DNA of 41,572 bases from a virus: the IMG/VR virus record IMGVR_UViG_3300032242_001495, positions 1 to 41,572 of that record; one strand, given 5' to 3'. The notes under the pieces were generated by a model. That model saw only the letters and a program-made list of their open reading frames with translations, was not told where the DNA came from and searched no databases. Positions within the stretch are counted from its first letter, which is position 1. Every line of letters begins with the position of its first letter. Position numbers and translations under genes: made by a program. Positions 8,484-35,230 of this stretch are shown one piece after another.

Positions 8484-10708
8484 TGGCAGGAATGGGAGAT
8501 TTTCTTCCGCCAGTTGTTTTTGAACTTCGTGCGGTAACGGGTCAGTTTCAAGCGAAAATGGCGGAAGCCAAGGGCGAATTAACTGCTCTTGAAGCGACTG
8601 GTGCATCTTCGGGTGCGCGTTTTGCTACTGCCCTGAAGTTCGGTCTAATTGGTGGCGCGGTTGCTCTCGGTGCTATTTCCGCTATTGCGGTCCACGAAGC
8701 CAACAAACTACAAGAAGCACAAACTCGCTTAAAAACCGCACTTGAAGCACAACATCGTCCAACCGAGCGCATTATGGGCGCGGTTGAAGCCCTTTCGGTC
8801 AATTATCGCAGTTTGGGTTTTGGGGCTGACGACGTTACTGACGCGTACGGTCGTTTGGAGATAGCGTTACAAGACCCGACTAAAGCGATGAAGTTGATGG
8901 GCGTCACTGCCGATTACGCACGATTCAAGCATATGGACCTTGCTTCGGCGGCTCGCATTATGGCTCGTGCTTCTCAAGGTTCAGCCCGTGCGTTTAAAGA
9001 ACTCGGTATCTCGATGGATACGAGCATTAAAGACCCGACTGCTCGCGCGAACAAGGCTTTTGCGGAACTAACTAAACGACTTGGTGGTCAGGCTCAGGCG
9101 TACACCAAGACGTTTGCTGGCACACTTCAAGTTCTGAAAACCAAACTACAGGCAGCATTCGAAACGCTTGGCACAAAGTTGCTACCCGCACTTCAAAGTT
9201 TTGGCGAATGGTTAAACAACGTTGTACTGCCTGCGTTACAAGGTTTCATCGACGGATTAACTGGAAAAAACGGCTTAGCCAAAGGGTTTAGCGACAGCGC
9301 AAGATACGCATTCAATTTCGGCAAAGTGATTATTGGCGTATTCAAAATCGCATGGCAGTTTAAGGATTTATTGCTTTTTATCGGCGGTCTGCTTGTCACA
9401 ATGTGGATTGGGTCAAAAATCTACGCTGGTATTCAGGCTATCGTTAGCGCACTGAAAATCGTGCGTGGAGCGTTTGTTGCAACCGAAGCAGCAGCCGACG
9501 CGGTGGTTGTTGCGGAAGCAGCAGCGACTGGCGGATTCTCACTTGTCGCTGCTGGTATTGCAGCGACCGCAGCGATTGCGCTTGTTGGCGGAATTGCTTA
9601 CGCTGTCACCAAGGGCATAGGGACGACTGACACTGGTGGCGACGGAAAAGTCAAAGTGCCAACTGGTTTGGGCGGTCTTCCTGCCGATTACAAACCTAAA
9701 CCCCCGCCAGACCTCAGTGGGGGTGGGGGTGATGGTAGTGGCGGAGACAAAAACACTCCGCGAACAAAGGCTGCTGACGCGTTAAAAGCGTTAAAACAAC
9801 AAATCGCTGACTACAAGAAAAACGTTCGCGACAACTTGACCGCTGGCTCTGACGTAGTCTCGTTACAACAAACTGCTCGCGCTCAGGCTGACGAACTTTA
9901 TCAAAAAATGCAGTCTGACGCCCGCGCGCGCGTATCCGCGTTAGGCGGTACAAGCGAACAGGCAGACGCAGTGGCGTCAAATATTAAAAAGCCAGTAGCC
10001 CAAAGCATCGTTTCCGCCATGAAGGGCAAAGTCAGCAAGTTAAAAACGTTCTACGCTTTGTTGCGTCGTCTCATGAAGAAGGGACTTCACAATTCGGTTT
10101 TACAACAGTTAATTGCAGCAGGTCCTGACGGCGGTATTAGCGCAGCGCAAGAAATCCTTGGTCTCGGCGTTGAAAAAATCAACTCGCAAGACTACCAAAT
10201 CGGAGCGTGGGCTGCTAAGATTTCAAATCTTGGCGCAAAACTTGAGTATGGTTCAGCGTTAAAAACCGCGACAGACAACGCTTTAGCCGAAGCCCGTTGG
10301 AATGCAACGCATATTGTTAAAGCGGTAAAGCAAGCATCAACCGATATTATCACTTCCACTGACCAAACCACTCAGGCAGCGAAAAAGCACGCCACTACTG
10401 CACACAACGACCACAAGCACCTAGCAACCAAGTCGGATTTCAGGTTTTACGAATGGAACAAACTAGGTAACATAGCGGAACAAAACGCAAAATCGGCGCG
10501 TTTGCTTCAGTGGATAAAAGACCACGCCAATCCTGTGACTCCAATCGTAACTCCAACTCCCACGCCAACCACATCACAGTCGTCTTTCACTATCAAGTTA
10601 AGCGTGGGCGGTAAAGAACTATCTACCGTGATACAAGACGCCATCGTACAGTACGAACGCCGTAATGGTAGCAACGGCACAAATCATCGGCATGGCGCAG
10701 TGGTATAA
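8483..10708 (+). CDS. Tape measure protein
   Basis: The largest helical tail protein here (741 residues), overlapping the chaperone stop by one base. It begins with the R-A-V-T-G-Q-F-Q-A-K-M-A-E-A helix typical of tape measures. It has hydrophobic segments near residues 50-70, about 295-320 and about 350-380, a Gly/Pro-rich linker (about 408-430), and long charged Lys/Ala/Gln helices. Tape measures set tail length and enter the host envelope. The length would fit a tail of roughly 110 nm by the usual 1.5 angstrom per helical residue, which is only a rule-of-thumb inference. No lytic transglycosylase or peptidase motif is seen. Confidence 0.88.
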   Translation: MAGMGDFLPPVVFELRAVTGQFQAKMAEAKGELTALEATGASSGARFATALKFGLIGGAVALGAISAIAVHEANKLQEAQTRLKTALEAQHRPTERIMGAVEALSVNYRSLGFGADDVTDAYGRLEIALQDPTKAMKLMGVTADYARFKHMDLASAARIMARASQGSARAFKELGISMDTSIKDPTARANKAFAELTKRLGGQAQAYTKTFAGTLQVLKTKLQAAFETLGTKLLPALQSFGEWLNNVVLPALQGFIDGLTGKNGLAKGFSDSARYAFNFGKVIIGVFKIAWQFKDLLLFIGGLLVTMWIGSKIYAGIQAIVSALKIVRGAFVATEAAADAVVVAEAAATGGFSLVAAGIAATAAIALVGGIAYAVTKGIGTTDTGGDGKVKVPTGLGGLPADYKPKPPPDLSGGGGDGSGGDKNTPRTKAADALKALKQQIADYKKNVRDNLTAGSDVVSLQQTARAQADELYQKMQSDARARVSALGGTSEQADAVASNIKKPVAQSIVSAMKGKVSKLKTFYALLRRLMKKGLHNSVLQQLIAAGPDGGISAAQEILGLGVEKINSQDYQIGAWAAKISNLGAKLEYGSALKTATDNALAEARWNATHIVKAVKQASTDIITSTDQTTQAAKKHATTAHNDHKHLATKSDFRFYEWNKLGNIAEQNAKSARLLQWIKDHANPVTPIVTPTPTPTTSQSSFTIKLSVGGKELSTVIQDAIVQYERRNGSNGTNHRHGAVV

Positions 10709-20590: not shown

Positions 20591-21265
20591 ATGAGCAGAG
20601 TAACAAAGACCAACAGCGTTGAAGGCGTAATGATGGTTGAAGGCGTACAGTACGACGTAAAAGTATCACTACAAAGAAGCCACGGACGTAGCGCACGCCG
20701 TAGCAAAGTCATGATTCACGCAAGCGAAATCGAATCACTAGTTTTCCCTGACGCTCCATACTGGGTATACGATGAAGACAAAGAGACCGCAGAATACAAA
20801 GCCAAGTACGCTACTTGGTACAAGGTTCAGGTCAAGACCGTAGCCAACTGGCGCGCATTCATCGCAGCAGCAGGTCGCGCAGGAATGACCGAGTTCAACT
20901 CGCTTGAACTTAAATGGAATGGTGACAATTTTGAGTTCACCGCACCGCAGACCGCAACCGATTGGTACGACATCAATGACTACGTGGTCCGCATCGCTCC
21001 AGTTGGCACATTTGAAGCCGAGCGCGTAGCAAGTGCAGACCGTAAGACTGAAGCAGACCGCAAGTTAACAACCGCAACCGACCTTGCGCTTGAAGCGTTT
21101 GCTAACACTCCTGAGATGTTTATCGCCCAAATCAATTTCGAGGACTCAACCTACTACTTCGGCAAAGCGAACAACGGCAAGGTCTACCAAGTCAGTTCAA
21201 GCGCGATGTTTGACGTTCGTTACGCGGTAAACCGCAGAGCAGACGCGGACGTGACTAATGCTTAA
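20591..21265 (+). CDS. Hypothetical early protein upstream of purB, 224 aa
   Basis: The ATG at 20591 follows the leader purine tract; in-frame starts farther upstream lie in the promoter. The 224-residue protein has a beta-rich start with M-M-V-E-G-V-Q-Y-D-V-K-V, a middle with W-Y-K-V-Q-V-K-T-V, and an end like a small beta domain (A-Q-I-N-F-E-D-S-T-Y-Y-F-G-K-A). Not recognised. It overlaps purB by 8 bases, so the two should be translated together. Confidence 0.6.
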   Translation: MSRVTKTNSVEGVMMVEGVQYDVKVSLQRSHGRSARRSKVMIHASEIESLVFPDAPYWVYDEDKETAEYKAKYATWYKVQVKTVANWRAFIAAAGRAGMTEFNSLELKWNGDNFEFTAPQTATDWYDINDYVVRIAPVGTFEAERVASADRKTEADRKLTTATDLALEAFANTPEMFIAQINFEDSTYYFGKANNGKVYQVSSSAMFDVRYAVNRRADADVTNA

Positions 21266-22550
21266 CCGATACGAGGACGACTTCATCGCTGAAGTCTGGT
21301 CCGACACAAGCAAAATCGCCCGCTGGGTCGAGGTCGAGTTGGCAGTGCTCAGTGCGCAGGTCGTAGAGGGAGTACTGCCAGACTCGGCTTGGAAGCAAGC
21401 GGTCAATCAGCCAGTGCCGACACCCGAGCAAGTACGCGAGCAAGAGCAGTACACCCGTCACGACGTAGTGGCGTTCCTTGACGCTTGGGGCGCGGAGTTC
21501 GCGCACCTAGGCATGACCAGCAGTGACTTGGTCGAGACCGCGCAGGCACTAGCCATTGAGCAGACCACGCGCTACATCGTCGCCCTCACAGTTGAACTGT
21601 CAACAGAGTTGCACCACCAAGCAACAAAGCACTGGCGCACGTACCGCGTCGGGCGCACCCACGGACAGCGAGGTACGGTGGACCTCTGGGGGCATAGGGT
21701 CGCAGACTTCATGCTTGCGCTCGACCGCGGTGCACTCCGCTTAATCAGCGCGCTGGCGGATTGCGCAGTCGCCAAGATTAGCGGACCGACTGGCACGTAC
21801 GCCGACATCAGTCGCGACGTCGAATGCGTGGTCGCCGAAGAACTTGGGCTACGACCAACACCAGTTGCCAGCCAGATTGTCATGCGTGACTCGCTGGTCC
21901 ATTGGGCGCACTGCCTATCGAATTTGGTGTCGGTGTGCGAAGCCATCGCGACCGAAATCCGCTTGTCCGCACACGGTAACGTGGGCGAGATTCGCGAGTC
22001 ATTCGGCTCACGGCAGAAGGGTTCAAGTGCTATGCCACACAAGCGCAACCCCATCACCGCCGAGCGGATTTGTGGAATGGCGAGACTAGCACGGACCTAC
22101 GCCACATCACTGGAGTCAACCGTGGTCCAGTGGCACGAGCGGGACATGGCGCACTCATCGATTGAGCGAGTGGTCCTGCCCGACTTGAGCCACGCGGTTT
22201 GCTTCGTACTGAGCGAGACCCGCAACTTGGTCGAGAGCATGAAGGTCAACACGCACATCATGTTCGAGCAGGTCATGGTCCACGATGACGTCTACAGCCA
22301 CCGTGTCCTAGCCGCTCTTATGCGGGCGGGGATTCCGCGGAAGCAGGCGCACGACGTGGTCCAAGAAGCGTCACGGGACGCCCACAAGACTTCCTTTGGG
22401 CGCGAAATACGGGCGAAGGTATCCAAAGCCCTTCCAGATACCTTCGTGGACTGGGAAGAGGTATTCTCGCTGGAGAGTTCCGTCCAAGGACTGAACTGGC
22501 TAGGCGAGATTTTGAAAGACACACAACACAACCAACTAGGAGAAAACTAA
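21258..22550 (+). CDS. purB: Adenylosuccinate lyase (PurB)
   Basis: A full-length, apparently active lyase of 430 residues, close to the usual bacterial length. It belongs to the fumarase/aspartase superfamily and removes fumarate from adenylosuccinate or SAICAR. Key parts: R-H-D-V-V-A-F (His68), T-S-S-D (87-90), R-T-H-G-Q (133-137, His135) and the signature S-S-A-M-P-H-K-R-N-P (256-265) on the flexible catalytic loop. It is expressed with a protein of unknown function from P5. In this phage, which carries a PurZ-like enzyme, its likely substrate is succino-2-amino-dAMP, giving dZMP. As I recall, known Z-genome phages leave this step to the host enzyme. It could also simply boost adenine nucleotide supply. 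Confidence 0.92.
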   Translation: MLNRYEDDFIAEVWSDTSKIARWVEVELAVLSAQVVEGVLPDSAWKQAVNQPVPTPEQVREQEQYTRHDVVAFLDAWGAEFAHLGMTSSDLVETAQALAIEQTTRYIVALTVELSTELHHQATKHWRTYRVGRTHGQRGTVDLWGHRVADFMLALDRGALRLISALADCAVAKISGPTGTYADISRDVECVVAEELGLRPTPVASQIVMRDSLVHWAHCLSNLVSVCEAIATEIRLSAHGNVGEIRESFGSRQKGSSAMPHKRNPITAERICGMARLARTYATSLESTVVQWHERDMAHSSIERVVLPDLSHAVCFVLSETRNLVESMKVNTHIMFEQVMVHDDVYSHRVLAALMRAGIPRKQAHDVVQEASRDAHKTSFGREIRAKVSKALPDTFVDWEEVFSLESSVQGLNWLGEILKDTQHNQLGEN

Positions 22551-25624: not shown

Positions 25625-28024
25625 ATGCCAAACAAAGAACAAGCACTAGAACTATTTGACGCAGGTCTGCTCCCACTGCCAGCCCGAGGTAAAGCACCGA
25701 CGGTCTCATGGCGTGACGTAGCGCAGGACCGCCCATCGCGAGCAAAAATCGCCAGTTGGTTCGACAAAGACCGCAACATCTGGATAGCCACAGGCGAACC
25801 GAGCGGAATCGTCGTCATCGACTGCGACTCACGCGGTGGTGACGTTTATTGGCGCGAACGGCTAGGCGCAGAACTGCTAGACAACACCACATGTGTCAAG
25901 ACCAGCAAAGGCTACCACTACTGGCTACGCATTCCAGTTGGAGAGAGCATCAGGTCGTGGTCCAGCGGAATCGCACAGCGAGAAATGGGCATCTCATTCG
26001 ACATTCGCGGTGACGGTGGTGGCGTAATCGCTCCGCCGAGCGTACATGAGTCAGGTCATGTTTACACATTCGTGCGAGGGCTGGATTGCCTGCAGGACGC
26101 ACCGATAGCCAAGATTCAACAGACCGCAACCGACAGCGACACAGACCCAAACGGACCAAAAAGCCTGCTATCCAGCCTACTAAGTGACCCACCATCTGAG
26201 GGCGGTCGCGACGTGTGGATAACTCGAGTCGCAGGTCACCTAGCCAAAATCGTGCCGTACCGCGACGCCTATCTGTCGCTGTTGCACACCATTAACCGCG
26301 CGCTGCCTGAACCGCTGACCGAGGACGAAATCGAGAAGAAAATCGGCGTGTGGGACAAAGAGCACGCCAAGCCAGACGTACCGACAGCCGACTCAGGTTG
26401 GCTTATTGGTGACGGGCTTTGGCTCTACACCGAGACCGTAACTGAAAGCGGTGGAGTTCGCGTGTCTGGAACAGACCGCTGGTGCAACGCCGACCTCGAA
26501 GCGCGCGGTGTTATCGACGGACCGCTCGGTCGCACCTACGCCGTCACGCTCCATCGGTCCGACGGCGAGAGTCGCGACGACCTAATCAAGGGTTCAATGC
26601 TTGGACGCATGAACGACACACTCAGTTGGCTAGCCAAGCACGGCGTCTCCGTTGTAGCCCCAAAGAACGACAACCGTAGCCGCGTCGCTGTAGGCGCACG
26701 ATTGCTCCGCTATTTAGAGAGCCAACAGCCGACGCTGTACAAGGAAGTACCGCACCTTGGCTGGGTGGACGGTATCGGATTCGTCACGCATGAGGGCGTA
26801 ATCACGGCGTCTGGTATGAAAGCCCACGAAGGTGTGATGCCAAATCCAGCCCTGCAGAACCTTGCTCCGTTCGTGTACGGAATGGGCAACCCCGACCGCG
26901 CAGTGGAAGTCTTGCGCGAAGTGTTGACCTTCCACGACGAGACCGTGACCGCTGTATTCGGCGCGTGGTGGATAGCCACACTGCTCAAAGGTCAGTACAT
27001 GGGCGCAATCGGTCACTTCCCTTACTTCGCTATTGAAGCGTCCAGCGAGAGCGGTAAAACTCGAGGATTCTTTAGGCTAATGCTCAACTTGGCTGGCACA
27101 ACGCGATTCGGCGAGTGGACCAAGGCAGCAACACGCGACGCAATTGGCGCGCACCGAAACGGAATCGTTCACATTGACGACTCAAACCGACTAGACAACA
27201 TCGCAGACTTACTGCGCCAAGCAACTGGCGAAGGGTCTGAAGGCAAGAAGGCTGCAGACAACACAGGCACAGTTGATATCAAGTTGGTGTCACCAGTTTT
27301 AATCACGGGCGAATCGCTTGGCGAATTGGGCGGTGGCGAGAAAGCACAGCGCGACAGGCGCGTATTGCTAACTGACGTGCCAAGTCCAGTTGGACGCAAA
27401 AGCACGAAGGGCGACTACCCACAATGGGACGACGTTAAACGACTCGAGCGCGTTGAAGGCGATTTGAGTAAATACGCTGGTACGATGGTCATGCTAGCAC
27501 TTCAGCGTGAACACATGATTGGCGAAGTAACTGACCTTAGAACTGGACATGGTCGTCACCACGAAGTGCTAGCGATTCTTCGAAATGCTGCTAGGATTCT
27601 AGCGGACATCATCGACGACGAGAGTGTCGTGCGCCTAGTGGACGCATGGTGCGAAGGACAGCGCGATTTCGGCTCAGAGAACACGCTGGTAACGAAGTTA
27701 CTACCGTGGGCTATCATTGACGAGTTTGGGCAGATGATTGACCGCATGGGGGGCGAGCCACCAGCGTTCGTTGAGAATGGTCTGGTCTACCTACACCCTG
27801 ACCGCTTGGCTGCTGCTTGGCAGAAGGAATTGAGGAAGCGCGGTAAGAACGACCGCCTAGATAGTCCCGAAGCCATCAGAGCGCAGCTCCGTGCCCTCGG
27901 AATAACTGGGTCGGTGTTCAAGCGCACTGGAGTCGGCAGAGACGCTCCGAAAGCCCGTTACGTGGCTCTAGACGGTACTTGGTCAGAGCGCGTCATCGAA
28001 ATCGCAAACAACGGTTGGGAGTAA
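25625..28024 (+). CDS. Primase-polymerase / helicase (PrimPol + DUF927-like ATPase)
   Basis: A 799-residue replication protein. Residues 1-145 form a Prim-Pol domain of the archaeo-eukaryotic primase family: V-V-I-D-C-D-S-R (D66, D68), T-S-K-G-Y-H-Y-W (H98), S-F-D-I-R-G (D126). About 260-390 is a DUF927-type region. The ATPase follows with E-A-S-S-E-S-G-K-T-R (Walker A, 472-479), then a helicase-like part ending D-R-R-V-L-L-T-D-V. The C-terminal ~180 residues look like a DNA-binding tail. It should prime and unwind DNA. PrimPol proteins are known from the Z-genome cyanophage S-2L. It starts the replication block after the hairpin at 25569. Confidence 0.85.
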   Translation: MPNKEQALELFDAGLLPLPARGKAPTVSWRDVAQDRPSRAKIASWFDKDRNIWIATGEPSGIVVIDCDSRGGDVYWRERLGAELLDNTTCVKTSKGYHYWLRIPVGESIRSWSSGIAQREMGISFDIRGDGGGVIAPPSVHESGHVYTFVRGLDCLQDAPIAKIQQTATDSDTDPNGPKSLLSSLLSDPPSEGGRDVWITRVAGHLAKIVPYRDAYLSLLHTINRALPEPLTEDEIEKKIGVWDKEHAKPDVPTADSGWLIGDGLWLYTETVTESGGVRVSGTDRWCNADLEARGVIDGPLGRTYAVTLHRSDGESRDDLIKGSMLGRMNDTLSWLAKHGVSVVAPKNDNRSRVAVGARLLRYLESQQPTLYKEVPHLGWVDGIGFVTHEGVITASGMKAHEGVMPNPALQNLAPFVYGMGNPDRAVEVLREVLTFHDETVTAVFGAWWIATLLKGQYMGAIGHFPYFAIEASSESGKTRGFFRLMLNLAGTTRFGEWTKAATRDAIGAHRNGIVHIDDSNRLDNIADLLRQATGEGSEGKKAADNTGTVDIKLVSPVLITGESLGELGGGEKAQRDRRVLLTDVPSPVGRKSTKGDYPQWDDVKRLERVEGDLSKYAGTMVMLALQREHMIGEVTDLRTGHGRHHEVLAILRNAARILADIIDDESVVRLVDAWCEGQRDFGSENTLVTKLLPWAIIDEFGQMIDRMGGEPPAFVENGLVYLHPDRLAAAWQKELRKRGKNDRLDSPEAIRAQLRALGITGSVFKRTGVGRDAPKARYVALDGTWSERVIEIANNGWE

Positions 28025-28302: not shown

Positions 28303-28470
28303 AAGCCTATGTGCCACAATTAGTGCCACAGGGGGGTTGAGACACACAGAACCCCGTCGTTTGGGGAAGAAGGACCTTGTGTCTCGGTGTCTCATATTTT
28401 GGAATAGAATTAATTACGTGTGCGCGCATGCGCGCCTAAACCTACTCGTTCTCTCGGAAGGGTGAGACAC
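28231..28470 (+). other. Iteron-like repeat cluster, candidate replication origin
   Basis: Within 240 bases the 7-mer GAGACAC or its complement GTGTCTC occurs six times: 28255-28261, 28289-28295, 28339-28345, 28379-28385, 28387-28393 and 28464-28470, plus a near copy at 28231. GTGCCAC or GTGGCAC occurs three more times (28243, 28311, 28323). An A/T-rich stretch follows (28394-28417), then the perfect palindrome GCGCGCATGCGCGC (28422-28435). The cluster lies between the primase and polymerase genes and partly in non-coding DNA, as many phage origins do. A regulatory operator array is the alternative. Confidence 0.6.
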
Positions 28471-30315
28471 ATGAAGATAGATAAACCAACCGAAGTGCTA
28501 CCAGATGTTACAGGACTGGTCGTCGCCGTGGATACTGAGACCAGCGGTCTACACGTTGATGATGGCGCGACCGTGTCAGTAGTTAGTGTGGCGTGGCGAG
28601 AAGAAGGCACACAGCCACGACTAGAAGCAGGCATTGTCGGATTTGCGTTCCCGTTCGACCAAGGACGCTTCGCTGAAAAGACAGGCACAACCGCCAGCCC
28701 GTTCGACGAGGACATCAACCTCGACCGAGACGAGTGGGCGCACCTGATGTTCTGGCTCAGTAAGCAACAGTTAGTGTTCCACAATGCCAAGTTCGACCTG
28801 CACATGCTAGCCGAAGGCACGCGTGAATGGGGTGGCGTGGACCTAGTGGCACAGACCATCTGGGACACCCAAATCACACATCAACTGTTCGAACCGCTGT
28901 TGACCAGTGGACTCAAACCGACCTGCGCACGACTGTTCGGCGAACACGTGGCGCAAGAGCAACACGACGTCCAAACCGCGCTACGCAAGCAGGGTACAGG
29001 GCTGACCAAACGGTACGACCTATTGGACTGGTCAGTTGTCGGACCGTACGCAACACAAGACGCGATGCTGACCTACCGCCTAGCCGAATGGCAGTGGCGC
29101 AGACTTGAGACCGACGACCAGCACCTAGCCGTACTAGCGGACCGCGAAGTCGAACTAATGAAGGTCCTATACAAAATGGAAAAGCGCGGTATCGGATTCG
29201 ACGCCAAGCGAGCCGAAAAATCGGCGGACATCTTGCGCGCGCTCAAGGTCGAACTCGAAAACGAATTGCCGTTCAAGCCGACCATTCCAGCGGCTAAAGC
29301 CTACTATTATGGCGAACTGGGTCTGATACCGAGCAAAGTCGGCGCAAGCGGGTCACCAAGCCTAGACAATGAGACCGTGACCAAACTAGCCAAGAAGGAC
29401 GTGCCACACGCGAAAACGTACCTACGCTGGACTGAAGTGAAAAGCGCGCTAGAGAAATGGTACGGCAACTGGGGCAAACTGGTTGGACAAGATGGGCGAC
29501 TACGCACGAACTTCAGGCAGACCAAAGTAGTTAGTGGTCGGTTGAGTGTAGAGCGTGTGCAGTTGCAGGCGATTCCGCACGACTACCAACTGAAACAACT
29601 GTTCGGCGATGGAGTTGAAGGCGTGCGTGCGTTCTTCCAACCGAAAGGCAACCACCAGTTGTGGGAGATTGATATTAGCCAAGCCGAGATTCGCGTAGCC
29701 ACAGCGGTGTCTAACTGCGTGCCAATGCGCGAGCGATTAATGCGTGGCGAGGACGCACACGACGCGACCACAATGTTGGTATTTGGCATTACTAAAGACA
29801 GCCCTGATTGGGAGCAGTACCGCTCAGTCGGCAAGCGACTCACGTTTGGTATGTTGTACGGCGCGGGAGTGCGCACTACACGCGAGCAAATCAAAATGCA
29901 CACTGGCGTTGATGCGAGTGAGGGCGAAGTGCGCAAATGGGTGGACCAGTACCGCAGTGCGTTCCCCGAGTTCGTGCGCGCTGCAAAGTACGCAGACCAA
30001 GCAGTGCAGAAGCGTGGATACGTGAAACTGATTAGTGGACGCTTGCGTCACTGGGGTCTCGATGAGCAAAGTCATAAAGCGTTTAACGCAGTCATTCAAG
30101 GTGGAGTGGCGGAAGCGATGAAAATGGCGATGGTCGAAGTTGAACGTCAATTCCCTGATTTGTTGCTGTTACAGATTCATGATTCGATGGTGTTGGAAGT
30201 TCCAAACAAGAACGCGGAGCAAGTTGTCCAGCAAGTGCGTGATGTGCTAGTGGGCGTGTTTGAGTCGCTGTTCAACATCGAGTTCAAGGCGGACTATAAA
30301 CAATGGGCAAAATGA
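28471..30315 (+). CDS. Family A DNA polymerase with 3'-5' exonuclease (DpoZ candidate)
   Basis: The ATG at 28471 is chosen over the GTG at 28420 because GGAAGGG precedes it at good spacing. The 614-residue enzyme has an exonuclease start (V-A-V-D-T-E-T, D21 and E23), then the polymerase motifs: A, E-I-D-I-S-Q-A-E-I-R (D401); B, R451-x3-K455-x3-F459-x3-Y463; C, Q-I-H-D-S (H570, D571, S572). Most family members have H-D-E in motif C. No 5'-3' exonuclease domain is present, as usual in phages. Its presence with purZ and mazZ suggests the polymerase that works with dZTP (DpoZ in known Z phages). Its gene stop overlaps the next start. Confidence 0.85.
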   Translation: MKIDKPTEVLPDVTGLVVAVDTETSGLHVDDGATVSVVSVAWREEGTQPRLEAGIVGFAFPFDQGRFAEKTGTTASPFDEDINLDRDEWAHLMFWLSKQQLVFHNAKFDLHMLAEGTREWGGVDLVAQTIWDTQITHQLFEPLLTSGLKPTCARLFGEHVAQEQHDVQTALRKQGTGLTKRYDLLDWSVVGPYATQDAMLTYRLAEWQWRRLETDDQHLAVLADREVELMKVLYKMEKRGIGFDAKRAEKSADILRALKVELENELPFKPTIPAAKAYYYGELGLIPSKVGASGSPSLDNETVTKLAKKDVPHAKTYLRWTEVKSALEKWYGNWGKLVGQDGRLRTNFRQTKVVSGRLSVERVQLQAIPHDYQLKQLFGDGVEGVRAFFQPKGNHQLWEIDISQAEIRVATAVSNCVPMRERLMRGEDAHDATTMLVFGITKDSPDWEQYRSVGKRLTFGMLYGAGVRTTREQIKMHTGVDASEGEVRKWVDQYRSAFPEFVRAAKYADQAVQKRGYVKLISGRLRHWGLDEQSHKAFNAVIQGGVAEAMKMAMVEVERQFPDLLLLQIHDSMVLEVPNKNAEQVVQQVRDVLVGVFESLFNIEFKADYKQWAK

Positions 30316-30833: not shown

Positions 30834-31679
30834 ATGGCGAATCGTACAGACGCACACGCACCAGCAAGCGCACAGTTCGACCCGAACGCATACAACTGTT
30901 GGGGCGTATTCGACCTCAATGAAGAAATAAACCACCGCGCACGCGCTCAGATGGTAAACCAACTGGTGTGGCAGATGGGCTACAAAGTCGGCGCACACGG
31001 CTCAGGTCAGTGCGGACATTGTGGCGTTCGCATTCGCTACGCAGCACTAATGGTGCGCGATGATGTGCAGGAGTTCATCTGGGTTGGCGAGCAGTGCCTA
31101 GACAATCGCTTCTCAATCGAGACCGCATCAGACTTTCAGCGTCTACGCAAAGAAGCCAAGTTGCACGCAGAGCGCGCGACCAAGGCAGAACGCCTAGCAA
31201 CCTTCTTGAATGATTACCCAGAAATGGCGAAATTGGAAGGGTACGCTGGCGACCACGCAATCCTAGACGACCTACACCGCTCACTTAACGCACACGCTGT
31301 CTTGAGCGAGAAGCAGATTGCGCTTGCAGTTAAGTTGATGGCGCAGGCAGATGAGAACCGCATCAAGAAGGCAGACCGCGACGCAGACCGCGAAGCACTG
31401 CTAGCGTCAGGCGTACGCGCACCCGAAGGTCGCGTTGACGTAGTCGGCACTGTGGTCGGCTTGAAGTGGACCGAAGATTACGGCTACGGCTCAACGCTGA
31501 AAATGACAGTAAAGACCGACGCTGGCTGGCTAGTGTGGGTATCAGTGCCGTCCAGCATTGACCCAGAGCGTGGCGACCGCGTAGCGTTCACCGCGTCAGT
31601 CACACCAAGCGACACCGACGTGCTGTTCTCATTCGGCAAGCGTCCGACCAAAGCCAAGGTACTGGAGCAGGCATCATGA
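30834..31679 (+). CDS. Zinc / OB-like protein of unknown function
   Basis: The 281-residue protein has an N-terminal metal site (C-G-H-C-G-V-R then E-Q-C, about 60-90), a charged middle helix rich in Lys/Arg/Glu, and a C-terminal OB-like beta region (V-D-V-V-G-T-V-V-G-L-K-W, G-S-T-L-K-M-T-V-K-T, G-D-R-V-A-F-T-A-S-V). Proteins with this layout occur in many actinophages. Nucleic-acid binding is plausible from the fold pattern only. First gene of the P7 operon. Confidence 0.65.
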   Translation: MANRTDAHAPASAQFDPNAYNCWGVFDLNEEINHRARAQMVNQLVWQMGYKVGAHGSGQCGHCGVRIRYAALMVRDDVQEFIWVGEQCLDNRFSIETASDFQRLRKEAKLHAERATKAERLATFLNDYPEMAKLEGYAGDHAILDDLHRSLNAHAVLSEKQIALAVKLMAQADENRIKKADRDADREALLASGVRAPEGRVDVVGTVVGLKWTEDYGYGSTLKMTVKTDAGWLVWVSVPSSIDPERGDRVAFTASVTPSDTDVLFSFGKRPTKAKVLEQAS

Positions 31680-31834
31680 CCTGCCCAGACTGCCAGCACA
31701 CGGGCACGGATTTTGCGGAGCAACGGCACAAGCAAGCGTGCGGACTGACCTGCACATTCGTGGAACTGAACTGCCCGAAATGCCACTACATTGTGGACGC
31801 TCGCGTGGAGCACGTGAAAGGGTGTAAAGCGTGA
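31676..31834 (+). CDS. Small zinc-ribbon protein
   Basis: A 52-residue product coupled to both neighbours (ATGA at 31676, GTGA at 31831). It contains C-P-D-C-Q-H near its start, a central C-x3-C, and C-P-K-C-H followed by H-V-K-G-C near its end: seven Cys in 52 residues, so one or two zinc sites are likely. Function unknown; its position before the Mom-like gene makes a partner role possible. Confidence 0.6.
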   Translation: MTCPDCQHTGTDFAEQRHKQACGLTCTFVELNCPKCHYIVDARVEHVKGCKA

Positions 31835-32496
31835 GCAAACCCGAATACGCAGTCGCGCCGATTGACAGCAAGGACACCTACCCGTACCTGCTTGAAATCC
31901 ACTACGCCAAACGCATACCAGCAATCGCCTACGCATTCGGGCTGTTCTGTGATGGCGAACTGGTCGGCGTGTGCACATTCGGAAGCCCAGCATCGTCCAC
32001 GCTCCAGAAAGGGCTATGTGGACCAGCGCACGCGGACAAAGTACTTGAACTCAACAGGCTGTGCTTGAAGTACAACCGCCCGAACGAAGCGTCCATATTG
32101 GTGGGAGCGTCGCTCAAACGACTGCCCAAGCCGACCGTCGTAGTGAGTTTCGCTGACACGTCGCACAACCACACGGGCGTCGTATACCAAGCGACCAACT
32201 TCATCTACACGGGGCTGACGGTGGCGCGCACGGAATGGGCAGTGAAGGGCTTGGAGCACCTACACAGCCGAGCACTCGGACACATAGCCAAGAAACTCGA
32301 GGGAGACCAGAAAGACCTAGAGAAAATCAAAATGTTATACGGCGACCGCTTCTATTACCGATCCCGTCCGCGCAAGCACAGATACGTGGCGATAATGGCG
32401 TCAAAAACAGACAAGCGGACACTGCTAAAGGCACTCAAATACGAGCCACAGCCGTACCCAAATCAGAACTTGACTGACCTGCAAGTCGTAGGTTAG
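31831..32496 (+). CDS. Mom-like GNAT-fold DNA modification protein
   Basis: It starts with GTG at 31831. The 221-residue protein has the pattern of the Mom family (GNAT superfamily), which in phage Mu adds a methylcarbamoyl group to the exocyclic amine of DNA adenine: E-I-H-Y-A-K-R-I-P, F-G-L-F-C-D-G-E-L-V-G-V, F-G-S-P-A, E-L-N-R-L-C-L, N-E-A-S, V-V-V-S-F-A-D, Y-Q-A-T-N-F-I-Y-T-G and a basic R-P-R-K-H-R-Y segment near the end. Its gene ends 32 bases before purZ and contains the purZ promoter candidate. In a Z genome the target amine could be on 2-aminoadenine. Modification activity is inferred from family resemblance. Confidence 0.72.
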   Translation: MSKPEYAVAPIDSKDTYPYLLEIHYAKRIPAIAYAFGLFCDGELVGVCTFGSPASSTLQKGLCGPAHADKVLELNRLCLKYNRPNEASILVGASLKRLPKPTVVVSFADTSHNHTGVVYQATNFIYTGLTVARTEWAVKGLEHLHSRALGHIAKKLEGDQKDLEKIKMLYGDRFYYRSRPRKHRYVAIMASKTDKRTLLKALKYEPQPYPNQNLTDLQVVG

Positions 32497-32528: not shown

Positions 32529-33566
32529 ATGTCGAAAGTCAGTGTAGTAGTCGGAGGTCAATTCGGCTCAGAAGGTAAGGGCGCAGTCGCTGGACACCTA
32601 AGTCAGGGCGACGATTACAGCGTCATCGGAGTTCGCGTAGCAGGACCAAATGCTGGTCACACCGTCTACGGAAACGGACCAGACGGCGAGGACAACTACG
32701 CGTGGAAACTGCGCACTGTTCCAGTCACAGCCGTAACAAATCCGCTCAGTACGCTCATCATCGCAGCGGGGTCAGAGATTGACTTTGACGTCTTGCGAAG
32801 CGAAATAGACGCGCTGGACAAAGCGGGGTACAACGCAAGCGACCGACTGTTCATCGACCGCGAAGCAACCGTAATCGACGACAAGCACATCAGGATTGAG
32901 CAGACCAACACAATGCACGAACGCCTAGGCTCAACAGCCAAGGGAATCGGAGCAGCGAGAGCAGCGCGCATTATGCGGACCGCTGAACTGTACGGTGGCG
33001 ACGTCGATACAACCGAAATGCTGAACGACAGCCTGAACAGCCCGTTCAACCACATCATCATCGAAGGCACACAAGGCTACGGGCTAGGGTCGCACGCTGG
33101 CTACTACCCATTCTGCACCAGTAGCGACTGCCGAGCCATCGACTTCCTAGCCATGGCAGGAATAAGCCCGTGGCACGCAGAAGTGACCGAACTGGACGTT
33201 TGGGTAGTCGCACGCACTCACCCGATTCGCGTGGCAGGAAATAGCGGTCCTTTGCTCGGAGAGACCAATTGGGAGCAACTAGGGCTACCAGAGGAACGGA
33301 CAACCGTCACCAATAAAGTACGCCGAGTCGGAAAGTTCGACCCTGAACTGGTCGCCGAAGCGGTTCGTGCTAATGGTGGCGCACCTACGGCGCGACTCGC
33401 GCTGACCATGTTTGACTACGTGTTTCCGCATCTCGCGGGTGCTACAATTGTAACGCAAGAAGATGAAGAAGTCGTGTCTTACATTAAAACTATTCAGCAT
33501 ATGACAGGAGCAAGCGTCGCCCTAGTCGGAACAAGCCCGACCACCATGGCGGCTCTTAATTGGTAA
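32529..33566 (+). CDS. purZ: PurZ: N6-succino-2-amino-2'-deoxyadenylate synthase (PurA-like)
   Basis: A 345-residue adenylosuccinate synthetase-like enzyme, much shorter than bacterial PurA (about 430). The P-loop is G-G-Q-F-G-S-E-G-K-G with Ser14 where PurA has its catalytic Asp. As I recall, this Asp-to-Ser change marks PurZ, which joins dGMP and aspartate to make the precursor of 2-aminoadenine deoxynucleotide. Retained: N-A-G-H-T (His44), G-S-T-A-K-G (134-139), E-G-T-Q-G (179-183), Y-P-F-C-T-S-S-D (193-200), R-T-H-P-I-R-V (229-235) and R-R-V-G-K-F-D-P (265-272). It heads an overlapping operon with mazZ and dut. Plain PurA activity on IMP is the alternative, but the Ser14 substitution argues against it. 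Confidence 0.88.
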   Translation: MSKVSVVVGGQFGSEGKGAVAGHLSQGDDYSVIGVRVAGPNAGHTVYGNGPDGEDNYAWKLRTVPVTAVTNPLSTLIIAAGSEIDFDVLRSEIDALDKAGYNASDRLFIDREATVIDDKHIRIEQTNTMHERLGSTAKGIGAARAARIMRTAELYGGDVDTTEMLNDSLNSPFNHIIIEGTQGYGLGSHAGYYPFCTSSDCRAIDFLAMAGISPWHAEVTELDVWVVARTHPIRVAGNSGPLLGETNWEQLGLPEERTTVTNKVRRVGKFDPELVAEAVRANGGAPTARLALTMFDYVFPHLAGATIVTQEDEEVVSYIKTIQHMTGASVALVGTSPTTMAALNW

Positions 33567-33793
33567 TGAGCATAGCATTTCACTGTGATGGACCAGAGTG
33601 CCGAGAGCGCGTGTTCATTAATGAGCCAGATGTTCGGGCATGGCTGGTCCTTACAGATGAAGATGGTGCAGATTTTCATTTCTGCACAGGTTGGCACATG
33701 ACGCGCTGGGGTGCGAGCATGTACGAACCAGAGCAAGAGCAAGAACCCGAGCAAGAAAACGAAAGAGAGGAAGAAGACGATGAGTCTGACTGA
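33566..33793 (+). CDS. Small Cys-rich acidic protein downstream of purZ
   Basis: The ATG at 33566 overlaps the purZ stop (TAATG); the TTG at 33560 is less likely. The 75-residue product has C-D-G-P-E-C (about 8-13), F-C-T-G-W-H (about 41-46) and a long Glu-rich tail. It may bind one zinc. Similar small proteins are common in actinophages. Unknown function. Confidence 0.6.
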   Translation: MSIAFHCDGPECRERVFINEPDVRAWLVLTDEDGADFHFCTGWHMTRWGASMYEPEQEQEPEQENEREEEDDESD

Positions 33794-33866
33794 AATAATG
33801 CCACTCACTGCGCCGAGATTCCCAGACGTGGATGACGACACAGTGTTCGACGGAGAACAGGAATAG
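33780..33866 (+). CDS. Very small acidic protein (28 aa)
   Basis: An ATG at 33780, 14 bases before the end of the previous gene, opens 28 codons to the TAG at 33864-33866, with Pro/Asp-rich content. It has GAAGAAGACG as a weak ribosome site. The gap before mazZ is otherwise unused. It could be a translation-coupling leader for mazZ. Low confidence that the peptide itself matters. Confidence 0.35.
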   Translation: MSLTEIMPLTAPRFPDVDDDTVFDGEQE

Positions 33867-33869
33867 GAA

Positions 33870-34223
33870 ATGATGGAAGGCACAGAGAAAAAAACCGCAA
33901 GACAACTGCGACTCGACGAGTTCGCAGAATGGTGGATAGCAACTTCTGAAGAAGCACTCGACACGATGATGCCGAAAGTGCGAGAGTACGGAAGCACCGA
34001 CCTACAAATCGTAGGCGAAGCCATGATGAAGATGATGCCACAACTCGAAGGCAAAGTCACACCAGCAGAGTTGGGTATCGCGTTTTACCTGCTCGGCAAA
34101 GTCGGTCGTGTAATCGGCGGTTACGTTGACGGACACGCGCCAAGCGACGACACTTGGTACGACATTGAAGTGTACGCAAAGATGGCGCGACGTACGCGTG
34201 AGACAGGGGGCATGTTCCCATGA
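33870..34223 (+). CDS. mazZ: MazZ-like MazG-type nucleotide pyrophosphohydrolase
   Basis: The 117-residue helical protein has the K-V-R-E-Y-G-S-T-D-L stretch (36-45) that MazG-like proteins carry as K-x2-x-Y-G-x2-D-L, a helix with L-G-K-V-G-R-V-I-G-G (74-83) and D-D-T-W-Y-D-I-E-V-Y-A-K-M (93-105), the acidic metal-binding end. MazZ in known Z phages turns dGTP into dGMP, the PurZ substrate, and this gene shares the purZ operon. Start at 33870; a second ATG one codon in is possible. The stop overlaps the next start as ATGA. Family call is by motif and context; nucleotide preference is inferred. Confidence 0.78.
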   Translation: MMEGTEKKTARQLRLDEFAEWWIATSEEALDTMMPKVREYGSTDLQIVGEAMMKMMPQLEGKVTPAELGIAFYLLGKVGRVIGGYVDGHAPSDDTWYDIEVYAKMARRTRETGGMFP

Positions 34224-34630
34224 TGATTTACCTCGCAGGACCAATCGACAACGCAAATATGGCGTGCTTTGAGCAACGCCGACAAATCAAGGACACATTA
34301 AAAACGCTTGACCACGTTGTGTTCGACCCAGCAAGCGCGTGGACCGTGCCGATTAATGCTGAGTTAGACGGCAGATTGCAGGACCTAAACGAAAAAGTCG
34401 TTTTGGCGTGTGACATGGTTGTGGCGTTTTTAGTGCCGAACGTGCTGTCAATCGGCACAGTCATGGAAATCGTCTACGCACACGACATCGGCACGCCAGT
34501 CGTTGTTCATATGCCAGACATCAACCCGAGTTGGGCGTTAGCGTCGCTAGAATCAGTGGTCATTACGCACACTGATACTGAACTAATTGAAGCAGTGCAG
34601 GACGTGATACCGAGAAAAAAACTGTGGTGA
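34220..34630 (+). CDS. Nucleoside 2-deoxyribosyltransferase-like protein
   Basis: The 136-residue protein has the family start Y-L-A-G-P-I-D, a middle helix (E-K-V-V-L-A-C-D-M-V-V-A-F-L) and I-G-T-V-M-E-I-V-Y-A-H with Glu83 at the place of the catalytic Glu. The family breaks or exchanges N-glycosidic bonds of deoxynucleosides or deoxynucleotides (Rcl/DNPH1 acts on dNMPs). It is translationally coupled to mazZ, so it probably acts on the same nucleotide pool. A dAMP- or host-nucleotide-clearing role, in place of DatZ, is speculation. Overlaps the next start as GTGA. Confidence 0.72.
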   Translation: MMIYLAGPIDNANMACFEQRRQIKDTLKTLDHVVFDPASAWTVPINAELDGRLQDLNEKVVLACDMVVAFLVPNVLSIGTVMEIVYAHDIGTPVVVHMPDINPSWALASLESVVITHTDTELIEAVQDVIPRKKLW

Positions 34631-34710
34631 CCGCCCAACAAGCGGTCGCACTGGTGGCGTTAGCGAACCTACTAGCCGTCATACTTTGGATAAACAGGAG
34701 TGGAAAATGA
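34627..34710 (+). CDS. Tiny membrane peptide (27 aa)
   Basis: A GTG start at 34627 overlaps the previous stop (GTGA), and the stop overlaps the next ATG (ATGA at 34707). The peptide is mostly one hydrophobic helix (A-L-V-A-L-A-N-L-L-A-V-I-L-W-I) with a basic end. Coupling on both sides supports translation. Function unknown. Confidence 0.5.
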   Translation: MTAQQAVALVALANLLAVILWINRSGK

Positions 34711-34817
34711 GAGAAGAAATCGAGATTTCGCTGTGTAAGCGACATCACTACAAGGGCGTAGCCCTAGCAATCAACTGCCATGAGTGCAGAGCAGAAGCAG
34801 ATGAGGACCAAGAATGA
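34707..34817 (+). CDS. Tiny Cys/His protein (36 aa)
   Basis: ATGA overlaps at both ends (34707 and 34814) place it firmly in the operon. It has C-K-R-H-H-Y and C-H-E-C, which could bind one zinc, and an acidic end. Function unknown. Confidence 0.5.
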   Translation: MREEIEISLCKRHHYKGVALAINCHECRAEADEDQE

Positions 34818-35230
34818 GTGAGATTCTGTACAAAGGCACAGCACCAACACGTGGCTACCACGACGACGCTGGATTCGACTTGTACGTAAATGGCGACTGG
34901 ACCATCAACCCGCAAGAGTTCGTAGACATCGACCTCAACTGTGCGGTGGCGTTTCCGACTGGCATGTGGGGCTTGCTCACTGGACGGTCGAGCACACTAC
35001 GCAAGCGAGGGCTTTTAGTGGCGCAGGGCGTGATTGACACAGGCTACACAGGACCGCTGTTCGCTGGCGTGTGGAATCTGACAAACGAACCCGTTGTTGT
35101 AACTCATGGAGACCGAATCGCACAGTTGATTCCAATGTACAACGTGGCGCAACTGACTAGTATGATTGAAGCGGTCGAGTTTCCCGAGACACAACGGGGT
35201 GGTAATGGATTCGGCTCAACAGGCACATAG
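34814..35230 (+). CDS. dut: dUTPase (trimeric)
   Basis: All five trimeric dUTPase motifs are present: D-A-G-F-D-L (18-23), G-R-S-S (57-60), G-V-I-D-T-G-Y-T-G (72-80), G-D-R-I-A-Q-L-I (99-106) and R-G-G-N-G-F-G-S-T-G (128-137). Length 138 is normal. It makes dUMP and keeps uracil out of DNA. It is the last nucleotide gene of the operon beginning at purZ. Confidence 0.95.
   Translation: MSEILYKGTAPTRGYHDDAGFDLYVNGDWTINPQEFVDIDLNCAVAFPTGMWGLLTGRSSTLRKRGLLVAQGVIDTGYTGPLFAGVWNLTNEPVVVTHGDRIAQLIPMYNVAQLTSMIEAVEFPETQRGGNGFGSTGT

Follow-up and report, generated by a model that had tools for sequence, protein, structure and literature searches.

The Z-cluster of phages S-2L, phiVC8 and SH-Ab 15497 consists of datZ, mazZ and purZ; enzymes leading from dSMP to dZMP and on to dZTP were not found on the genomes of Z-cluster phages, where host enzymes serve (PMC8342488). 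A further class of phages with 2-aminoadenine (Z) in their DNA is defined by the synthetase PurZ0: in the genomes of that set dutZ is always present and dmtZ is present in most, the substrates that DutZ hydrolyses are dATP and dGTP, and DmtZ both cleaves dAMP and acts as a transferase of deoxyribose 5-phosphate onto Z (PMC12884076). This set of Z-synthesis enzymes is already known, having been described recently. Here we analysed a 41,572-base record of an uncultured virus (the window; 52.9% GC), which is a virus of bacteria and a divergent, uncultured addition to the PurZ0 class. Neither a terminal repeat nor a tRNA was found in the record, and megablast of positions 17000-37393 against a phage collection returned no nucleotide relatives. 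All window genes discussed below lie on the plus strand. Judging from their sequences, it is very probable that adenine in the DNA of this phage is replaced by Z through the PurZ0 route; this assessment covers the Z genome by that route only, and the three roles that we infer beyond it, for a PurB-like lyase acting on dSMP, for an unnamed protein and for a Mom-family enzyme acting on Z, stand outside it.

The purZ0 gene (32529-33566) starts with ATG and encodes a 345-residue 2-amino-adenylosuccinate synthetase of the PurZ0 type, as assigned by profile, PDB match and phylogeny. The protein begins MSKVSVVVGGQFGSEGKGAV and, as the original prediction had it, carries a GSEGKG motif with Ser14 at the position of Asp13 in PurA. 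It matched the Adenylsucc_synt profile (PF00709, 3e-39) and PHROG 1211 (2.6e-86). In a phmmer search of the PDB, the top match was 7vf6 (1e-82), followed by the archaeal-type PurA structures 5k7x and 2d7u (about 4e-44) and, lower, by PurZ of phiVC8 (2e-29) and then of S-2L (1e-20); 7VF6 is the PurZ0 of Gordonia phage Archimedes (PMC12884076). Identity reached 57% with the protein of Streptomyces phage Galactica and 48-49% with those of Korra and Wayne. In a tree of 73 sequences, obtained like our other trees with a quick method and with S-2L on a long branch, the window protein fell within a phage PurZ0 clade of 44 rows together with Archimedes PurZ0 (SH-aLRT 100). PurA (SH-aLRT 98), the PurZ group of S-2L, phiVC8 and SH-Ab (100) and Ser-type proteins encoded on chromosomes all lay outside this clade; a grouping with IMP-using PurA, which would have spoken against Z synthesis, was absent. 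Asp296 of the window protein, a residue of the GTP site, occupies the column of the Asp in the TKLD motif of E. coli PurA and GTSP337 that of the PurA motif STGP, and both hold for Archimedes PurZ0; the PurZ of phiVC8, S-2L and SH-Ab have Asn or Gln in place of the TKLD Asp. These residues are consistent with the use of GTP by the enzyme. Tong et al. (2023) reportedly found GTP to be the phosphate donor of PurZ0 and ATP that of PurZ. One sentence in PMC12884076 reverses this phosphate-donor preference of PurZ0 and PurZ, and the introduction of the same paper assigns ATP to PurZ.

The Ser residue was correctly read, but it cannot carry the argument by itself: GSEGKG is also found in a chromosomal bacterial family and, because the GSE motif recurs at about 300 loci in genomes of bacteria and archaea, Ser14 was rejected as a stand-alone proof. 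The chromosomal proteins are encoded in an operon seen in diverse bacteria and one haloarchaeon (loci L145-L221, for example L147 6364-10153, L199 5956-10346 and L172 5845-10003). This operon combines an exonuclease-type RNase_H_2 protein, the PurZ-like protein with GSEGKG and a dCTP deaminase/dUTPase-like protein with apparent membrane segments at its end, and both neighbours of the PurZ-like gene are present in 46 of 80 loci. An ordinary PurA was also encoded in all eight genomes checked. PADLOC gave only weak partial matches to this operon, for which a role in defence is one possibility. That such a Ser-type family exists among unrelated neighbours demonstrates other uses of the fold, and it could be argued that the PurZ-like enzyme of the window and its partners merely skew nucleotide pools, by dATP starvation, in a phage whose DNA is of the usual kind or contains Z in part only. 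We consider this improbable, as the gene belongs to the PurZ0 clade and occurs together with DutZ, DmtZ and a cognate polymerase of the DpoZ-1 clade.

These partners are encoded around purZ0. As predicted, a PolA-type DNA polymerase with a 3'-5' exonuclease domain is present (28420-30315; PF00476, 3.4e-48; PF01612, 8.8e-10). It clusters with 31 other polymerases of PurZ0 phages (SH-aLRT 100), apart from eight polymerases of non-Z phages and from the DpoZ of phiVC8 and SH-Ab (DpoZ-2), a position that makes it, from its sequence, a member of the DpoZ-1 clade. A Prim-Pol primase/polymerase is encoded at 25625-28024 (PF09250, 1e-22; PHROG 5177, 6.6e-119). In PurZ0 records of 32-43 kb that have Prim-Pol (L074, L079, L082, L083, L085, L014, L021 and L039), no match to the PolA family was found, which suggests that some PurZ0 phages may, like S-2L, be without DpoZ; absences in virus records hinge on the completeness of those records, and these may be incomplete.

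On the other side of purZ0, the gene at 34220-34630 encodes a DmtZ-like protein of the NDT superfamily (PF05014, 5.9e-9), predicted to be a dAMP hydrolase and deoxyribose-phosphate transferase, and its start overlaps the preceding gene (33870-34223) by four bases. Its residues Y4, D10, P37, N57, G79, E83 and W105 align with Y6, D12, P57, N77, G99, E103 and W124 of Ghobes DmtZ, so that the catalytic Tyr, Asn and Glu are all present; its phage matches come only from Arthrobacter, Gordonia and Streptomyces records. The dUTPase-fold protein encoded at 34814-35230 (PF00692, 1.5e-25) had been listed as dut, and it is indeed a dUTPase-fold gene on the same strand; its top phage matches are proteins of PurZ0 phages (52-59%), it is 50% identical to Ghobes DutZ, and we assign it as a DutZ-like protein, predicted to be a dATP/dGTP/dUTP pyrophosphohydrolase. 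Moreover, the DmtZ-DutZ fusion of Wayne aligns end to end across 34226-35224 of the window (2.5e-39). In two other records the GenBank label 'deoxyuridine triphosphatase' is attached to genes that are DmtZ (NDT-fold) by alignment (L002 42692-43177 and L007 42375-42812), the true DutZ being a second gene, gp55. In L142, a contig assigned by binning to a Verrucomicrobia MAG, there is a complete PurZ0 cassette plus PurB, which may mean that hosts of PurZ0 phages extend beyond Actinomycetota or may be a binning error. All together, the PurZ0 clade, DmtZ, DutZ and the DpoZ-1-clade polymerase lend good support to the replacement of adenine by 2-aminoadenine that was originally predicted. The original prediction overlooked DmtZ and also a PurB-like and a Mom-family gene, which are the most unusual of the parts.

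The PurB-like gene (21258-22550) encodes an adenylosuccinate lyase homologue (PF00206, 7e-32; PDB 1c3u, 6e-71) predicted to convert dSMP to dZMP. The signature of the fumarase/aspartase superfamily is present as SSAMPHKRNP, together with the catalytic His and Ser, and H68, H135, S256/S257, K262 and N264 are invariant among phage PurBs. The window protein is 37% identical to the PurB of Galactica. A PurB match was obtained in 29 of the 50 records searched; with S-2L and one marginal match (8.6e-5) left out, PurB is encoded in 28 of 49 PurZ0 records. One group of soil records (L057, L060, L063, L070) has it flanked by the unnamed gene on one side and dmtZ/dutZ on the other. A small tree placed the window protein in a phage group of five rows (SH-aLRT 98) and apart from the nine PurBs of cellular origin (96); it did not support a common origin for the phage PurBs as a whole (55). 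That both enzymes of the branch from IMP to AMP are encoded could suggest that the phage simply carries ordinary PurA and PurB as auxiliary purine genes that boost AMP supply. The exchange of Asp13 for Ser, the short archaeal-type length of the synthetase and its fully supported grouping with PurZ0 and not PurA make this very unlikely. Under the PurZ0 reading, the phage would with PurB encode for itself a step that has until now been credited to host enzymes. The phage gene itself is known, because the name PurB-like is already in use for some of these genes in GenBank; PurB is absent from the text of PMC12884076, and no description of its role in the pathway was found in the literature searched. 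Encoded by over half of the PurZ0 records examined, the lyase is an under-described part of the pathway.

Between purZ and the next conserved gene, the ORF call gave a small Cys-rich ORF of 77 residues (33560-33793), and a similar ORF of 86 residues occupies this place in the relative L009. The gene that follows (33870-34223) encodes a 117-residue protein that had been called MazG-like and taken for MazZ. Its link to purZ is tight. Among 251 PurZ relatives in IMG/VR, the best 80 were kept as loci (top-scoring relatives, the Arthrobacter group excluded), and the family lies directly after purZ in all 80; conversely, purZ is present in 72 of the 73 loci found through the family, the remaining locus being cut at a contig end. 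In the phage collection the family is restricted to Microbacterium, Gordonia, Streptomyces, Micrococcus and Curtobacterium phages, annotated as hypothetical protein in all rows listed. Wayne is without it and has in the same slot a protein that PMC12884076 names DUF5664.

In 51 sequences of this family, K36, Y40, G49, E67, K77, R80, D94, D98 and Y102 are invariant, and the AlphaFold2 model of the window protein consists of four helices (pLDDT 94). For the all-alpha NTP-PPase/MazG superfamily one would look for an EExxE...ExxD metal motif or a structural match to MazG; the family has four helices with invariant E67, D94 and D98, and the searches do not bear out a MazZ. Foldseek returned the family itself and, outside it, only weak matches to DUF6378/Nmad1-like phage proteins (E 0.05 and above), sequence and fold searches of the PDB gave nothing significant, and Pfam and PHROG yielded no usable match for any of the 51 members. 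Comparison by hhalign with S-2L MazZ, Wayne DUF5664 and the DUF5664-DUF550 MazZ of SH-Ab 15497, each entered as a single sequence, detected no similarity, although a remote homology may escape such a comparison. Searches with tblastn for S-2L MazZ, SH-Ab MazZ, Wayne DUF5664 and phiVC8 MazZ-2 found no match in the window, and three DatZ queries gave none better than E 0.4. The MazG-like/MazZ label was therefore dropped on the sequence, profile and PDB searches in favour of an unnamed four-helix family. With neither a MazZ beside purZ nor a DatZ detected, the purZ-mazZ-datZ system of S-2L and phiVC8 that had been invoked gives way to the PurZ0 system of Wayne, Ghobes, Archimedes and Galactica. 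PADLOC returned no matches for the window PurZ or the unnamed protein. Because of its position in the locus and its acidic invariants, we propose that the latter is an enzyme of the dNTP pool that stands in for DUF5664. A family without a name, yet next after purZ in all related loci that were checked, is a second under-described part of the PurZ0 pathway.

Upstream of purZ0, the gene at 31831-32496 encodes a 221-residue protein of the Mom DNA modification family (PF25680, 5.8e-38, 131 bits against a cutoff of 27.1; PHROG 1384, 'Mom-like DNA modification protein', 1.2e-54). It is about 28% identical to Mom of phage Mu and aligns with its motifs HYxxR, ELNR and SFADxxxxxGVVYQAxNF, and the positions conserved in 80 relatives are intact. 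The gene ends 32 bp before the start of purZ, with a purine-rich ribosome-binding site in the gap. A small Cys/His-rich, zinc-finger-like ORF of 52 residues (31676-31834, from the ORF call) overlaps the mom start by four bases. This is reminiscent of the Com-mom arrangement in phage Mu; the likeness may be coincidental, because the nearest relative of the window, L008 (73% PurZ identity), has a similar ORF without Mom. In L008 a longer Cys-rich ORF lies immediately 5' of purZ, with neither Mom nor an N6_N4 methyltransferase upstream, and relative to it the window mom is a clean insertion. As the genes on both sides match the flanks of the same point in L008, an assembly chimera appears unlikely. 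In L009 (70% PurZ identity) the slot of Mom is occupied by an N6_N4 DNA methyltransferase (PF01555, 6e-56; 8789-9709). Such a methyltransferase next to purZ was found in one of 49 PurZ0 records and was rejected as a general feature.

Mom of Mu makes N6-carbamoylmethyladenine. Since adenine in the window phage would be replaced by Z, the likely substrate of its Mom would be the N6 of Z, and we tentatively envisage a doubly modified purine, with Z throughout the genome and a fraction of it modified at N6, a base not described before. N6-carbamoylmethyl-2-aminoadenine would be a possible, equally tentative example. Were Mom active, a second, Mom-type layer would be stacked on the Z-synthesis operon, and the presence of the gene within the purZ operon suggests that one base may be protected in two independent ways at once. 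We give about an even chance to another explanation in which the Z genome stands and the Mom-like protein acts on adenine left over where substitution is incomplete or on host DNA, or is a recent, idle passenger. The pairing is a singleton: a search that recovered the window's own copy as a positive control gave no Mom in the 49 other PurZ0 records, and the flanks of the 80 Mom loci closest to the window's, up to 6 kb a side with many short contigs, showed no purZ. These counts speak against Mom being a regular component of PurZ0 phages and led us to reject that idea; because the pairing was seen in the window record only, it may be a chance acquisition. Around the nearest Mom relatives (58%), the contigs showed no gene for PurZ0, maz, DmtZ or PurB, and all characterised Mom enzymes act, to our knowledge, on adenine. 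On the other hand, mom is packed closely into the operon, has a ribosome-binding site of its own and encodes every residue conserved in the family, and full substitution by Z would leave scant adenine for it. A pairing of Mom with PurZ or with 2-aminoadenine in phages was not found in the literature searched.

While the gene identities, clade memberships, catalytic residues and synteny were read directly from the genes, a pathway may be proposed by assigning each reaction from published homologues. DutZ, and perhaps also the unnamed 33870-34223 protein, would convert dATP and dGTP to dAMP and dGMP; PurZ0 would make dSMP from dGMP and aspartate, with GTP as the probable phosphate donor; the PurB-like lyase would turn dSMP into dZMP, and host kinases would raise dZMP to dZTP. 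DmtZ would destroy dAMP and salvage the Z base into dZMP. The DpoZ-1-type PolA would then place Z opposite T, giving a ZTGC genome, and the Mom-family enzyme might modify a fraction of the purines in the finished DNA, likely at N6 of Z.

Compared with described systems, the window is closest in content to the PurZ0 phages, namely Ghobes and Archimedes of Gordonia, Galactica and Hiyaa of Streptomyces, Wayne of Arthrobacter and Goodman of Microbacterium (PMC12884076): it likewise has purZ0, DutZ, a DpoZ-1-clade PolA and PrimPol in the same order, and the gene order is common to the window, Ghobes, Archimedes, Galactica and the 80 IMG/VR loci. DmtZ is shared with Ghobes, Archimedes, Wayne and Galactica, PurB with Ghobes, Archimedes and Galactica, and the unnamed family with all of these PurZ0 phages except Wayne. 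The window differs from them in a PurZ that is just 48-62% identical to theirs and in having Mom in the purZ operon; its DmtZ and DutZ are encoded by separate genes, whereas they are fused in Wayne and Galactica. With the Z-cluster of S-2L, phiVC8 and SH-Ab 15497 (PMC8342488) it shares Ser at the position of PurA Asp13 and the same pathway logic, but its PurZ and its polymerase belong to other clades, and DatZ and MazZ were not found in it. Finally, the window Mom belongs to the same Pfam family as Mom of phage Mu and has the HYxxR, ELNR and SFAD...GVVYQAxNF motifs; unlike in Mu, it adjoins a Z-genome synthetase, and its purine target would be Z, not A.
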